Source: Thermospira aquatica
Lineage (GTDB): Bacteria > Spirochaetota > Brevinematia > Brevinematales > Thermospiraceae
Direction of reading: 5' to 3'
Assembly (NCBI RefSeq): GCF_023525255.1
Contig: NZ_CP073355.1
Coordinates: 248,001-312,000, forward strand
DNA length: 64,000 nt
A program made the translations under genes and the position numbers. The notes under the pieces are model-generated. The model saw only the letters and a list, made by a program, of their open reading frames with translations, was not told the DNA's origin and did not search any database. Shown here piece after piece: positions 5,628-60,187 of this stretch (positions are counted from its first letter, which is position 1; every line of letters begins with the position of its first letter).

Positions 5628-6431
5628 TTATTTTGAAGAAAAGCCCTCTTTTATCTGGGAAAGTCTACTTCGCAGGATATGAATAGCTTTCGTATGGAGC
5701 TGGGATACACGGGATTCGGTAACATTGAGAATGGTCCCTATCTCTTTGAGAGTGAGTCCCTCATAGTAATAGAGAATCAACACCTGCTGTTCTCGTTCTG
5801 GAAGCTCCATAAGTGCTTTAGCAATCATTTTTTTGATTTCTTGTTTTTCAGCAACCACATCCGGATTGTAGGCATCAGAACTTTCGAGGGTTTCCTCGAT
5901 AGAAGTCGGAGAACTTTCCGTACCGTCATTGATGTACCAGCTTTCATCCATGGAAACAAGATTATTACCGCTTACACGCAGAAGAAGGGCATGAAAATCC
6001 TCAAGTGGCATATCCATGGCTTCTGCTATCTCTTCATCAGTTGGAGGTCTGCCTAGTTTACCTTCAAGTTCTGTAATAGCCCTTTCAATTTCTTTGGATT
6101 TTTGTCGAACCGAACGGGGAAGCCAATCAATCGCTCGAAGTTGATCAAAAATAGCCCCTCGAATACGGGTAACTGCATACGTCTTGAACTTAATCTCACG
6201 AGAGGGATCAAATTTATCAATAGCATCAATAAGCCCAAGAATACCATAACTCACGAGATCATTATATTCCACAGAACTAGGCACATTCATAGCAACACGA
6301 CCCGCAACATACTTCACAAGAGGTGCATATTTCTCGATGAAATAATTACGTATCAGCTCATCATGGGTTTGAATGTATTGTTCCCATAACTCTTCTTCTG
6401 AAAGGTTATCGAACTGTTCGTATCCCTTCAT
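5628..6431 (-). CDS. fliA: RNA polymerase sigma factor FliA/WhiG (sigma-28)
   Basis: Directs RNA polymerase to motility promoters. The 267-residue protein has region 2 (YAPLVKYVAGRVA, DLVSYGILGLIDAIDKFD, KTYAVTRIRGAIFDQLR), region 3 (WLPRSVRQKSKEIERA) and a region 4 helix-turn-helix (LTLKEIGTILNVTESRVSQL), the FliA/WhiG arrangement. It leads the operon fliA, truncated hpf, hprK. A 12-bp perfect palindrome overlaps its ribosome site region. A matching sigma-28 promoter is found elsewhere in the window (37249-37275). Confidence 0.96.
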   Translation of the reverse strand: MKGYEQFDNLSEEELWEQYIQTHDELIRNYFIEKYAPLVKYVAGRVAMNVPSSVEYNDLVSYGILGLIDAIDKFDPSREIKFKTYAVTRIRGAIFDQLRAIDWLPRSVRQKSKEIERAITELEGKLGRPPTDEEIAEAMDMPLEDFHALLLRVSGNNLVSMDESWYINDGTESSPTSIEETLESSDAYNPDVVAEKQEIKKMIAKALMELPEREQQVLILYYYEGLTLKEIGTILNVTESRVSQLHTKAIHILRSRLSQIKEGFSSK

Positions 6432-28226: not shown

Positions 28227-29150
28227 CTATTTGTCCACTATTGGATCCTTATTCAGTTGCATGCGGTATTTCTCTTGCTGGTAGAGATACAGATCCTCAA
28301 CCAGGCGCATCTCTTCCAGTTTCTGGCGACGTTTTGCCCGGGTGGTAATAATCTGCCAGACTTCCTCATCGTTGATATCCTCAACCACGTCGCTGTCTAC
28401 AACATAAGGGGTATACTCCATATCAATCGACTTTATATAGGTGACAAAATCCCCTCCTATCTGATCGGCATACCGATAGATAATGATAGCATCCAGGACA
28501 AGGTAAGGTACATCCTTAGGATACAACGGCTCACGGCGCAAAATCTTCGCATTAAATCTCTCACTAAAATTCGGGTTGACATACATGAGTTTTCTCCAAC
28601 CTTCAAAGTTAAGCCAGCCAACAAAAAACTCTTTGTATTCCTCATTCTTGTCACGAAAACGGACACTCGCTCCATAGGGATAATTTCGGCCGCTGATCCA
28701 CATAGAGACAGAACGCACCTCCGAAACATTGGGCATCACCCCGTTGGAGATATTCATATAACGCCCTTCATCATCATAAATTTTGATAGGAAAAGGTGGT
28801 TGAAGAAGAGCATTTGCATTGTTTTTCCATGTGGGAAAATGAATTCTCGCCCCAATTACTGTCCCAAACCGCTTACTCTCGACAGGCTTACAGTAGCTCT
28901 GAAACCGATTCTGATCGAGATTTGCAGACTCATTCAACTTAACGGTCCAGCTTTCAAGAAGAAAATCTTTATAGCCAAAGACAATTCGCGGCTGCCCATC
29001 GATGTTGGTAATATAACTTTCTTCTGGCCCTTCAAACTGGAGCTTAATCCGCTGATCATACTCTGAAAAGTCTATCACGTTTCGACTAATAACCCCATAC
29101 GCACTCAGAGCCGAAACCAGTAGAAAGGAAACTATCAGTTCTCTCCTCAT
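28227..29150 (-). CDS. flaA: Flagellar filament outer layer protein FlaA
   Basis: Sheath protein of the spirochaete periplasmic flagellum. The 307-residue precursor starts MRRELIVSFLLVSALSAYG, a Sec signal peptide. The mature part is beta-rich and shows FlaA-like features: VRSVSMWISGRNYPYGASV, FVGWLNFEGWRKL, VLDAIIIYRYADQIGGDFVTYIKSI and a charged helical C-terminus. ATG at 29150 follows AAGGAG; an in-frame start 27 codons upstream lacks a site. Gene stands alone with its own terminator. A TATAAT lies at 29205-29210, and a weak sigma-28-like site overlaps it. Confidence 0.85.
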   Translation of the reverse strand: MRRELIVSFLLVSALSAYGVISRNVIDFSEYDQRIKLQFEGPEESYITNIDGQPRIVFGYKDFLLESWTVKLNESANLDQNRFQSYCKPVESKRFGTVIGARIHFPTWKNNANALLQPPFPIKIYDDEGRYMNISNGVMPNVSEVRSVSMWISGRNYPYGASVRFRDKNEEYKEFFVGWLNFEGWRKLMYVNPNFSERFNAKILRREPLYPKDVPYLVLDAIIIYRYADQIGGDFVTYIKSIDMEYTPYVVDSDVVEDINDEEVWQIITTRAKRRQKLEEMRLVEDLYLYQQEKYRMQLNKDPIVDK

Positions 29151-29181
29151 AACCCACTCCTTTTCTTCGTTGACACAAAAA

Positions 29182-29210
29182 GCATCGGAAAAAAACAAAA
29201 AAGCATTATA
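29182..29210 (-). promoter_or_regulatory. Possible flaA promoter region
   Basis: On the minus strand TATAAT (29210-29205) lacks a good -35. Alternatively TAATGCTT (29208-29201), 11 bases, TCCGATGC (29189-29182) is a partial match to the sigma-28 pattern. Which is used cannot be decided from sequence. Confidence 0.35.
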
Positions 29211-29350
29211 TTTTGATACGTGTTTTTTCATGTTTTTTCTGGTATCAAATTCGAGTTATCCTTAAAAAAAACAAATTTATCTCTATGAATTTCAATAAAA
29301 TAAAAGAGATTACAAAATTCCAGTTTTGAAGGGGTAAACTGCTTAAAAAC

Positions 29351-36518: not shown

Positions 36519-37190
36519 TTACTTCCCCAGAGGAAGGGTATTCACAGGAGACGGCATCGGAGCATTCACACTTCTCTGAATCTGATAAGCCTCTCGAAGC
36601 TGCATCACATAACGAGCAGCCCATTCCTGGAGTTTTCGATTGCCGATCTCCTGCTGAATAAACTGCTTCATCTGAGAAGCCGGAATATTCATTTTGGAGA
36701 GCTGGGCCTTATTCTGTTCATAGAAGGCATTGATCTCAGCATCGGTAGGAAGAAAAACAGAGGTATCCGAAGGAAGATGCTTTCTCAAATAGAGCTGATA
36801 CACCGCCTGGCGAACAGAAGCCTGGATCAAAAATCTTGTTTCAGGGGTATCAAAACTCTTATCCTTTAAGGCTTCAAGCAATACAACATACTGATTAATA
36901 AACTCTTCAAGTAATTGCGCCTTGAGTTCCGGACTATTCATAAGCTGCGCCCTCTGATTGGCAGGAACCTGTTCGAGAAAAAGTTGTATTCCTCGGTCCA
37001 GATCCTCTTGAGTAATCACATACTGACCAACTTTTGCCACCCAGTTTGTTGATTTTACAGAAGGAAGCGGATAAAACATGGTAAGGGCGAGGTCTTTTTT
37101 CTGTATACTTACGAAAAATGGGATCAACCCGCCTCCCAGTCCCACTATAAAACCAATCAATACCCCAAGCCACAGTGGTATTTTTTGCAT
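36519..37190 (-). CDS. SurA_N-type periplasmic chaperone-like protein
   Basis: 223 residues with an N-terminal membrane anchor (WLGVLIGFIVGLGGGLIPFF). The body is the SurA N-terminal chaperone fold: VAKVGQYVITQEDLDRGIQL, QLLEEFINQYVVLLEAL, ASVRQAVYQLYLRKHL, and the AEINAFYEQNKAQL linker. No PPIase domain follows. AAGGAG precedes the ATG. First gene of a minus-strand operon with DUF4340 and PAS-like genes, and likely acts on envelope proteins. Confidence 0.8.
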   Translation of the reverse strand: MQKIPLWLGVLIGFIVGLGGGLIPFFVSIQKKDLALTMFYPLPSVKSTNWVAKVGQYVITQEDLDRGIQLFLEQVPANQRAQLMNSPELKAQLLEEFINQYVVLLEALKDKSFDTPETRFLIQASVRQAVYQLYLRKHLPSDTSVFLPTDAEINAFYEQNKAQLSKMNIPASQMKQFIQQEIGNRKLQEWAARYVMQLREAYQIQRSVNAPMPSPVNTLPLGK

Positions 37191-37248
37191 ACATTACTCC
37201 TTGTTTGTTTTTTTCAGAGAAAAATTGTAATCAAAAGAGAGAAAAAAA

Positions 37249-37275
37249 TCAAGTTTTTAGCCACTATGCCGATAA
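37249..37275 (+). promoter_or_regulatory. Sigma-28 (FliA) promoter
   Basis: TCAAGTTT (37249-37256), an 11-base spacer and GCCGATAA (37268-37275). The consensus is TAAAGTTT-N11-GCCGATAA, so the -10 is perfect and the -35 matches in 7 of 8. It reads into the gene at 37303. Confidence 0.85.
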
Positions 37276-37302: not shown

Positions 37303-37773
37303 ATGCGAAAAACATGGTTTCTTATTCTGATACCGGTACTTTTTCTTTTGTCAGCTACCAAAGGATTAGACTATTCCGATCCTGTCCTTGTTGTGGATGC
37401 GGCATGTATCTTTCTGATGAAAGGAGACTACGAGTATCTGCTCCTACTCACGGAAGAAAATGAAAAAAAGAAAACCCTCATCATTCTCTCCAATCTTCAG
37501 AGTAACAAAAATGCCAAAGCCTGGCTCAAGGAAGAAATGGATAAACTCGGTGGTTACGAAATCGTCAATGCCGAACTCTACACCAACAACAGCCAGCAAT
37601 ACGCCGTTGTTTCCACCAGATGGCTCATCAAAAACACCTCACAAGAAATAAGCGAATTCGCCACTCCCGAGGAAAAAGCAAAAATCAAACCCAATATTGT
37701 CACCTCGGTGGATTACCTTCTCAAAAAAATCGACGGCAAATGGAAAATTGTTTCCACAAAAATCCGACAGTAA
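37303..37773 (+). CDS. Small exported protein under FliA control
   Basis: 156 residues with a signal peptide (MRKTWFLILIPVLFLLSATKG). The mature part alternates helix and strand (DPVLVVDAACIFLMKGDYEYL, trimmed, and YLLKKIDGKWKIVSTKIRQ at the end), a pattern seen in DUF4878/NTF2-like lipoproteins and secreted proteins. GGAGG lies 8 bases before the ATG. The sigma-28 promoter upstream suggests a motility-linked periplasmic role; nothing more specific can be said. Confidence 0.8.
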   Translation: MRKTWFLILIPVLFLLSATKGLDYSDPVLVVDAACIFLMKGDYEYLLLLTEENEKKKTLIILSNLQSNKNAKAWLKEEMDKLGGYEIVNAELYTNNSQQYAVVSTRWLIKNTSQEISEFATPEEKAKIKPNIVTSVDYLLKKIDGKWKIVSTKIRQ

Positions 37774-37800
37774 AATGTATATCCTCATGGTAAAAAAGAA

Positions 37801-37828
37801 AAAAGAGAAGGCTTCGGCCTTCTCTTTT
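37801..37828. terminator. Strong bidirectional terminator
   Basis: Arms AAAAGAGAAGGC and GCCTTCTCTTTT (12 bp) with a TTCG loop and T tracts on both sides. It can end the gene at 37303-37773 and the FapA operon from the other strand. Confidence 0.92.
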
Positions 37829-37904
37829 TTTATAAAGACAAAAAATGAAAAAAAGAAAAAACGTTTAACGGAAAATATTCCACCTCTACACAAGACACGA
37901 AAAA

Positions 37905-38774
37905 CTAAGCATACTTTTTTCGTCTCATATACTCATCAAAATCACCAAGAATAAGGATCCCCTTTTTGTAGACGATCACATTACGATATCGGGTGGTAAG
38001 TTCAAGTTTCTGATTATCAATGGCAAGAGAGACATTTTCATAGACCGTGTCGTGAATAAGAATCGTCCGCTCCAGTTCATTCTCTTTTTGAGATTGTTCC
38101 CAGAGAGCCTTGCGCTGTGTCTGGACATGAGCCAGGCGCAAACATACCTCCTGATAGAGTTTCACCTGCTGAGCAAGCTCCTGTTTTTTCGCAAGAGGAA
38201 GTTGTTTCACCTTCTCGCCAAGAATTCGAATCACCTGAATAGTTTTCTCGTAACGTTCCTTCTCTGCCTGGAGTTTTTTTTCTACCTCAGCCAACTTTTG
38301 ACTCTGGAGAAACATCTCCGATTGACGAAAATTGGTGAGCCTTGCAATGGTAAAAAAACCCTTTTCATTCCCCAGAAAATTCGTCTCAACCTCGATGCCA
38401 GCTTCTGCTGTTCCTCCAACAATAGCTCCCCTTCCCTCTTTACACACAATGGTTTCCCTTGCTACCAGGTGAGCCTCAATAGCCTCTATGAGAATATATA
38501 TAGACTTTTTCGCCCGAAGCGTGGCGTTTCTTACCTTACTCACGGTAATATTGCCTGCCGCTACCAGAGAAGATTGGTAGCCATTCACTGTCCCGTGAAC
38601 CGTAATACTCCCCTTATGAGAAAAAATCCTGGATTGTTCCACATCCCCTATCACGACAACATTGCCGATAGCCTCAACCTGATTCCCAATTCCCACATTT
38701 CCCCGTATTTCCACATCATCTTCTATCACCATTGGCGCACCGTGAGGTGGGAGTGCAGAGTTAATGATATGCAT
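37905..38774 (-). CDS. FapA-domain (DUF342) protein
   Basis: 289 residues. The first 140 or so form FapA-type beta-helix repeats (VEIRGNVGIGNQVEAIGNVVV, trimmed; KGSITVHGTVNGYQSSLVAAG, trimmed; VGGTAEAGIEVETNFLG). A long coiled coil follows (KLAEVEKKLQAEKERYEKT). FapA proteins occur in many bacteria with flagellar or polymer functions, but no mechanism is established. It is the last gene of the fliS operon, eight bases after the GAF gene. AGGAG precedes the ATG. Confidence 0.82.
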   Translation of the reverse strand: MHIINSALPPHGAPMVIEDDVEIRGNVGIGNQVEAIGNVVVIGDVEQSRIFSHKGSITVHGTVNGYQSSLVAAGNITVSKVRNATLRAKKSIYILIEAIEAHLVARETIVCKEGRGAIVGGTAEAGIEVETNFLGNEKGFFTIARLTNFRQSEMFLQSQKLAEVEKKLQAEKERYEKTIQVIRILGEKVKQLPLAKKQELAQQVKLYQEVCLRLAHVQTQRKALWEQSQKENELERTILIHDTVYENVSLAIDNQKLELTTRYRNVIVYKKGILILGDFDEYMRRKKYA

Positions 38775-59800: not shown

Positions 59801-59893
59801 TATTCCCTGCTATTCTCACAAAAACTCAAGTTTTTAATAAAATCAGCGATATATATAATAGCAAGGACGCAAAAAAGGTTCAAGGAGGAAAAC

Positions 59894-60187
59894 ATGCGTA
59901 TCGAAGGTTTGGGTTCTCCACCCTATCTCCCGGACAAACAGGCACCAACGCCCCAAGAAAAGCAGGCTATTGAAACCAAGATAGCCGAGGTAAAACAAGA
60001 GCTCAAAAATGAAGCACAGGAAAACCTCGAAAAACAGGCGAGAAAACAAGAAGCCGAAAAGCTTTTGCGCATGAACGAGTACTACATTAAAGAACTCTTA
60101 TTCATCTTTAGTTCAAAAGGAAACGCTGAAACCATTGAAAAACTCGCCAGGCTTCTCAAAAAGCAAAAAGAGATGCTCTCCCGTTAA
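59894..60187 (+). CDS. Small coiled-coil protein of unknown function
   Basis: 97 residues, no signal peptide. A proline-rich start (SPPYLPDKQAPTPQEK) is followed by a charged helix (KIAEVKQELKNEAQENLEKQ) predicted as coiled coil and by IKELLFIFSSKGNAETIEKL. AAGGAGG lies before the ATG and TATAAT at 59854-59859 may be its -10 box. Stop overlaps the convergent DnaE-like gene by four bases. I do not recognise a family. Confidence 0.75.
   Translation: MRIEGLGSPPYLPDKQAPTPQEKQAIETKIAEVKQELKNEAQENLEKQARKQEAEKLLRMNEYYIKELLFIFSSKGNAETIEKLARLLKKQKEMLSR

Follow-up and report, generated by a model that had tools for sequence, protein, structure and literature searches.

A conserved sigma-28-type promoter precedes a lone gene for an exported, predicted NTF2-like protein, a candidate accessory of the periplasmic flagella, in Thermospira aquatica

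The flagella of spirochaetes are enclosed in the periplasm, and the lineage-specific parts that connect them with the cell wall have been described only in part. Promoters of the sigma factor FliA (sigma-28) follow, in the E. coli type, the consensus TAAAGTTT-N11-GCCGATAA. The closest described promoters are FliA class-3 promoters of other spirochaetes. In T. denticola, flaB2 is reported to have the -10 core CCGATAA and a transcript start 124 bp upstream of the gene (PMC9481697), and in L. interrogans sigma-28 promoters have been predicted for flaA1, flaB1, flaB4 and fliS (PMC5243855). With regard to the protein fold discussed below, the NTF2 domain of Campylobacter Pgp2 possesses a pocket which is reported to bind peptidoglycan and to direct the helical shape of the cell (PMC8038945).

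In the window (the whole analysed stretch of 64,000 nucleotides, GC content 44.8%), the following features make up the locus under study; P0001 designates the encoded protein.

37249 to 37256, plus strand: sigma-28 -35 element TCAAGTTT
37268 to 37275, plus strand: sigma-28 -10 element GCCGATAA
37290 to 37296, plus strand: Shine-Dalgarno sequence GGGAGGA in front of the ATG of the P0001 gene
37303 to 37773, plus strand: P0001, an exported protein of 156 amino acids, predicted NTF2-like (ATG at 37303, stop at 37773)
37798 to 37831, plus strand: intrinsic terminator hairpin with a UUCG loop (-21.3 kcal/mol, z -6.72)

The site shares the -10 core and the two-box layout with the promoters of T. denticola flaB2 and L. 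interrogans. Its boxes are separated by a spacer of 11 bp, and 15 of the 16 positions agree with the E. coli-type consensus; position 2 of the -35 box carries a C where the known sigma-28 promoters have an A. The leader is also shorter, as only 27 bp lie between the end of the -10 box (37275) and the ATG, in comparison to 124 bp for flaB2 of T. denticola and approximately 150 bp for one flaB of this genome. A long flaB leader of about 150 bp occurs in each genome of the genus (L054, L120, L122), and an inverted repeat visible by eye near the start of these leaders suggests post-transcriptional control.

The earlier note had described a near-perfect sigma-28 promoter at exactly this position, and the scans bear this out. 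One site with at most one mismatch was detected in the window, while the mean in 60 dinucleotide shuffles was 0.0; with up to three mismatches allowed, it is still the only site, against a shuffle mean of 0.63. The genome scan that the note had put forward yielded the same picture, since the site in front of the P0001 gene is the sole match without mismatch to WMAAGTTT-N11-GCCGATAW in the single-contig genome of 2,515,453 bp, and thus the best N11 match of the genome; two further sites carry one mismatch. At two or fewer mismatches, 26 sites were counted in the whole genome and 11 with the reversed control pattern, so that weak matches alone mean little. The looser pattern AAGTTT-N10-13-CGATA gave 14 sites versus 13 for its reversed control, and the weak-site counts of the two sister genomes were 16 versus 21 (G014) and 14 versus 9 (G037). 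The lists of two-mismatch sites are therefore close to noise and were not used as evidence alone.

The decisive evidence for a sigma-28 promoter is its conservation across orthologues. An alignment of the upstream regions of six genomes, taken from two families, has its two longest runs of invariant columns in AAAAATCAAGTTTTT, a block of 15 consecutive columns that includes the -35 element, and, 11 bp further on, in CGATA of the -10 element. Across families, most of the intergenic region diverges, while the spacing, the position and the -10 core stay. Nine of 15 orthologue upstream regions scored better than their dinucleotide shuffles at P<0.05: all six aligned regions of families f1 and f3, three of four from f4 and none of five from f2 and f5. 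The six regions not above the shuffles belong to G066, to G099 and to the four genomes of f5 that this comparison covered; only weak boxes are present in family f5 and in two further orthologues. The -10 core YCGAT was found 15 to 42 bases upstream of 12 of 14 orthologues (a count that takes in G045 and G109, which fail the Shine-Dalgarno start filter), in comparison to 5 of 182 other genes of the same loci (Fisher P 1.1e-13, with the orthologues not being independent of each other). These control genes were script-chosen open reading frames of at least 120 amino acids, some of which may be spurious, and one of the five that carry YCGAT is flaA of G037. Including the window gene, the motif is present in 13 of 15 cases and absent upstream of the two orthologues in G045 and G109. 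Neither sister genome contains a site without mismatch, and the only site with one mismatch in each is the promoter of the P0001 orthologue.

It is conceivable that the motif arose by chance and is unused, and that a sigma-A promoter drives the P0001 gene. The region is AT-rich, and sites that resemble the motif loosely are frequent; against this stand the spacing, position and -10 core kept across families and the rarity of YCGAT in the 182 control genes, which make a chance motif very improbable. The reading as a sigma-28 promoter is strongly supported by the orthologue conservation, together with some of the genes that lie behind similar predicted sites.

The sigma factor itself is encoded in the window, as had been claimed before:

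5628 to 6431, minus strand: fliA, sigma-28 of the FliA/WhiG family (285 bits, cut-off 189.6)

Six matches to the FliA/WhiG model were obtained in the genome, and only this one lies above the cut-off.

The left neighbour of the P0001 gene (36519-37190) is transcribed away from it and the right one (37905-38774, with a FapA domain) towards it, and therefore the P0001 gene constitutes a single-gene transcription unit. The strong terminator 3' of the gene would end this transcript; the earlier note had described the gene as a lone one. The FapA gene is not located beside the P0001 orthologue even in the sister genomes. Of 12 window proteins that were looked for in some 10 kb surrounding the orthologues, none of the flagellar ones stayed close; flaA lies near an orthologue only in G037, at a distance of 8 kb.

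P0001 had been regarded as an unknown secreted protein, and this description holds. Its N-terminus is strongly hydrophobic and of the export type; by our reading it looks cleavable in some homologues and more like an uncleaved anchor in family f3. No Pfam match better than E 0.058 and no NCBIfam match were obtained; the sequence gave no match at E<=10 to PDB sequences, and the family profile gave matches only at E>=0.2. FlaA or flagellin profiles of Pfam and NCBIfam did not match P0001 at E<=1, and no paper on this protein was found in the literature searches. The AlphaFold2 model, calculated with 15 sequences, reached a pLDDT of 84.7 and a pTM of 0.74. It consists of four main helices followed by four long strands with a short helix between them, and the predicted packing of the helices on a curved four-stranded antiparallel sheet corresponds to the NTF2-like fold. 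The best fold match is likewise NTF2-like (Foldseek probability 1.00, E 3.0e-4), as is the best hit of VIA-align (Z 12.7, rmsd 2.5, 109 residues). Among the invariant residues of the family are T50, E54, W107, Y138 and W147-K148-I149. DUF4440 and DUF4878 were matched weakly at E<=0.1 by four and one of the 15 family members, respectively (best E 0.0018 and 0.0074), and by P0001 itself not at all at this threshold.

The NTF2 fold is widespread and does not in itself point to a function. Like the accessory domain of Pgp2, P0001 is an exported protein with helices predicted to lie on a curved four-stranded sheet; unlike Pgp2, it is free-standing and has no enzyme domain, and Pgp2 was not among the fold matches listed. 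The precedent of the Pgp2 NTF2 domain makes a free-standing adaptor binding peptidoglycan or glycan the leading guess for P0001.

The P0001 gene probably belongs to the late flagellar genes under sigma-28 control. The computed basis consists of the promoter and its conservation among orthologues, an N-terminus of the export type, the fold prediction and the layout as a single gene. A genuine sigma-28 promoter would give rise to a single-gene transcript for a Sec-exported NTF2-like protein, which most likely is an accessory of the periplasmic flagella; we estimate the probability of this reading at roughly 60%. We infer with high confidence that FliA transcribes the gene, and a role of P0001 in motility is proposed with moderate confidence, as that of a candidate. 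The FliA polymerase would produce the transcript late in flagellar assembly, alongside the late flagellar genes. The product would reach the periplasm, the site of the flagella in Spirochaetota, by the Sec route, fold into an NTF2-like cone and act there as an accessory of the flagella. With low confidence, its pocket might bind peptidoglycan or glycan and thereby couple the filaments to the cell wall. As a small conserved exported protein behind the best sigma-28 promoter of the genome, P0001 is a concrete candidate for a flagellar part.

Homologues of P0001 were found in 17 of 18 genomes of the class Brevinematia. The exception, G026, is 99% complete and lacks a homologue, yet it possesses flagellin and FliA. 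Flagellin is present in all 18 genomes and FliA exceeds the cut-off in 17 of them; because every genome of the class carries flagellin, co-occurrence with flagella is uninformative. All five genomes of family f5 contain a second, divergent NTF2-like copy (L088-L092). Outside the class, homologues are rare. In a search of 392 sampled Spirochaetota genomes, in which at most nine first-look candidates per genome were scored, 22 genomes matched the family profile at E<=0.001, 17 of them within the class. Two credible remote relatives occur outside it, in G010 (L151, E 4.4e-13) and G021 (L152, E 3e-8), and no sigma-28 box was seen by eye upstream of either. Weak matches to longer open reading frames in G008, G078, G129, G220, G060, G327 and G350 were rejected as unrelated or as sharing the fold only. 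The earlier note had put forward a new periplasmic motility protein as a candidate and a homologue search across the spirochaetes as a check. Since the homologues are almost confined to the class, P0001 is not a general motility protein of spirochaetes as far as the searched genomes are concerned. It represents a lineage-specific family of known fold, and sigma-28 targets are already known as a kind.

The divergently transcribed left neighbour encodes a chaperone-like protein, and its predicted promoter extends into the sigma-28 site:

36519 to 37190, minus strand: SurA-N-like chaperone, divergent partner, 223 amino acids with a hydrophobic N-terminus (SurA_N_3 29.3 bits, cut-off 27.2)
37247 to 37252, minus strand: predicted sigma-A -35 element TTGATT of the SurA-like gene, sharing 37249-37252 with the sigma-28 -35 element
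37224 to 37229, minus strand: predicted sigma-A -10 element TACAAT of the SurA-like gene (17-bp spacer)

In comparison to SurA and PrsA, this protein possesses the SurA N-domain, and a SurA chain ranked first in its fold search (E 3.7e-4, with a model pLDDT of 65); it differs from them by its length of 223 amino acids, its hydrophobic N-terminus and the lack of a PPIase domain above the cut-off (Rotamase_2 15.3 bits, cut-off 27). The overlap of the -35 boxes suggests that sigma-28 and sigma-A polymerases may compete at the divergent pair, and the shared TTGATT-N17 would account for the invariant AAAAA in front of TCAAG.

P0001 might be a folding helper, acting together with the SurA-like protein on Sec-exported sheath proteins such as FlaA, with both polymerases competing via the overlapping boxes. 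Every one of the 11 genomes from f1, f3 and f4 retains the divergent pairing, and in families f1 (three of three genomes) and f3 the TTGATT-N17 belonging to the chaperone gene runs into the sigma-28 -35 element. The f3 overlap is among the three best sigma-A candidates in G084 and G089, where it ties with equal-scoring ones, and can be made out by eye in G059. Family f4 shows no overlap, its two promoters being separate. In all six genomes of f2 (G099) and f5 (five genomes) that have both genes, these are situated on different contigs; in four of the six, the sequence around the gene rules out that they are adjacent, and in G099 and G104 the contigs end near the gene. A folding helper of this kind is hence considered unlikely. 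The combination of both ideas, namely a class-wide flagellar accessory that as a free-standing NTF2-like binder of peptidoglycan or glycan would connect the filaments to the cell wall and be switched by sigma-28/sigma-A competition at overlapping promoters shared with the SurA-like gene, is quite unlikely in this complete form.

Further sites of the sigma-28 type bear on the question whether P0001 belongs to the flagellum or to the envelope. In the genome scan, fliD is preceded by a site with one mismatch. Sites with two mismatches precede a DUF1577 gene, a GGDEF-PilZ gene and an open reading frame of 296 amino acids that is followed by cheR. Sigma-28-type sites also lie in front of a gene that we read as FliY/FliN-like and, with a 12-bp spacer, of one flaB. 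DUF1577 corresponds to YcgR-GAZ, and proteins of this kind have been reported in Thermospira aquatica (PMC11800159). Two such sites are located in the window:

29182 to 29208, minus strand: sigma-28-like site TAATGCTT-N11-TCCGATGC in front of flaA (likely flaA start 29150), weaker than that of P0001 and kept by flaA of G037
59826 to 59852, plus strand: second conserved sigma-28-type site, in front of an open reading frame of 97 amino acids (59894-60187), present in three of three genomes of the genus

The comparison within the genus comprised 12 of the 26 genome sites, L144 from the looser pattern and all 30 sites of the sister genomes; of the 14 genome sites left out, 13 lie inside open reading frames and one (L013) is without a fitting open reading frame behind it. 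Sites kept in all three genomes precede the P0001 gene, the 97-amino-acid open reading frame, an exported leucine-rich repeat (LRR) protein and an LptC-like protein. Sites in front of the DUF1577 gene and of a protein with TPR and SPOR matches below the curated cut-offs are kept in two of three. The same search thus provides a short list of possible sigma-28 targets in Brevinematia.

Sites similar in quality to most of those in front of the motility genes also precede exported proteins without a known flagellar role, which favours another explanation, in which the P0001 gene depends on FliA and its product serves the upkeep of the envelope or cell wall needed when the cells swim, without being part of the flagellum. 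The genus-wide sites of the LRR and LptC-like proteins (three of three each) and of the TPR/SPOR protein (two of three) would fit this explanation, as would the SurA-type chaperone core of the divergent neighbour. These three sites carry two mismatches each, which is in the range close to noise, and the promoter of P0001 is closer to the consensus than those of fliD and flaA, which suggests that the gene is closely tied to the programme of late flagellar expression. A function in envelope upkeep is therefore regarded as possible but doubtful, and an accessory of the periplasmic flagella is preferred.

Some minor observations were made on the genes behind these sites. The 97-amino-acid open reading frame matched no Pfam family, and no match to FlgM was seen; its size would be compatible with a divergent FlgM or some other small protein of motility, as would its C-terminus, which is charged and looks helical. 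The longest open reading frame of flaA (28227-29231, minus strand, in the window) probably starts too early, as the likely start is at 29150, and the additional N-terminus of the long version would contain the sigma-28-like promoter. For FliD (L002:1564-3027), the start with the best Shine-Dalgarno sequence gives an N-terminus that, by our reading, resembles a Sec signal peptide (MRRIIMAWGMLLVGALWGAS...). FliD is normally exported via the flagellar type III system, and a Sec-like start is therefore odd.

Another site with one mismatch (L003) was set aside as a gene promoter because no gene lies downstream. It is located on the opposite strand within the leader of a gene which we read as FlaA-like, and it is kept with two mismatches in both sister genomes, so that a promoter for an antisense or small RNA is possible. 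In all three genomes, the reverse strand near 1501-1527 (L003, L166, L167) mimics a sigma-28 promoter. TCCGATAG is kept in all three loci and may be the sigma-28 -10 element of the FlaA-like gene itself, whose leader forms a hairpin in L003 and L166 and another fold in L167.
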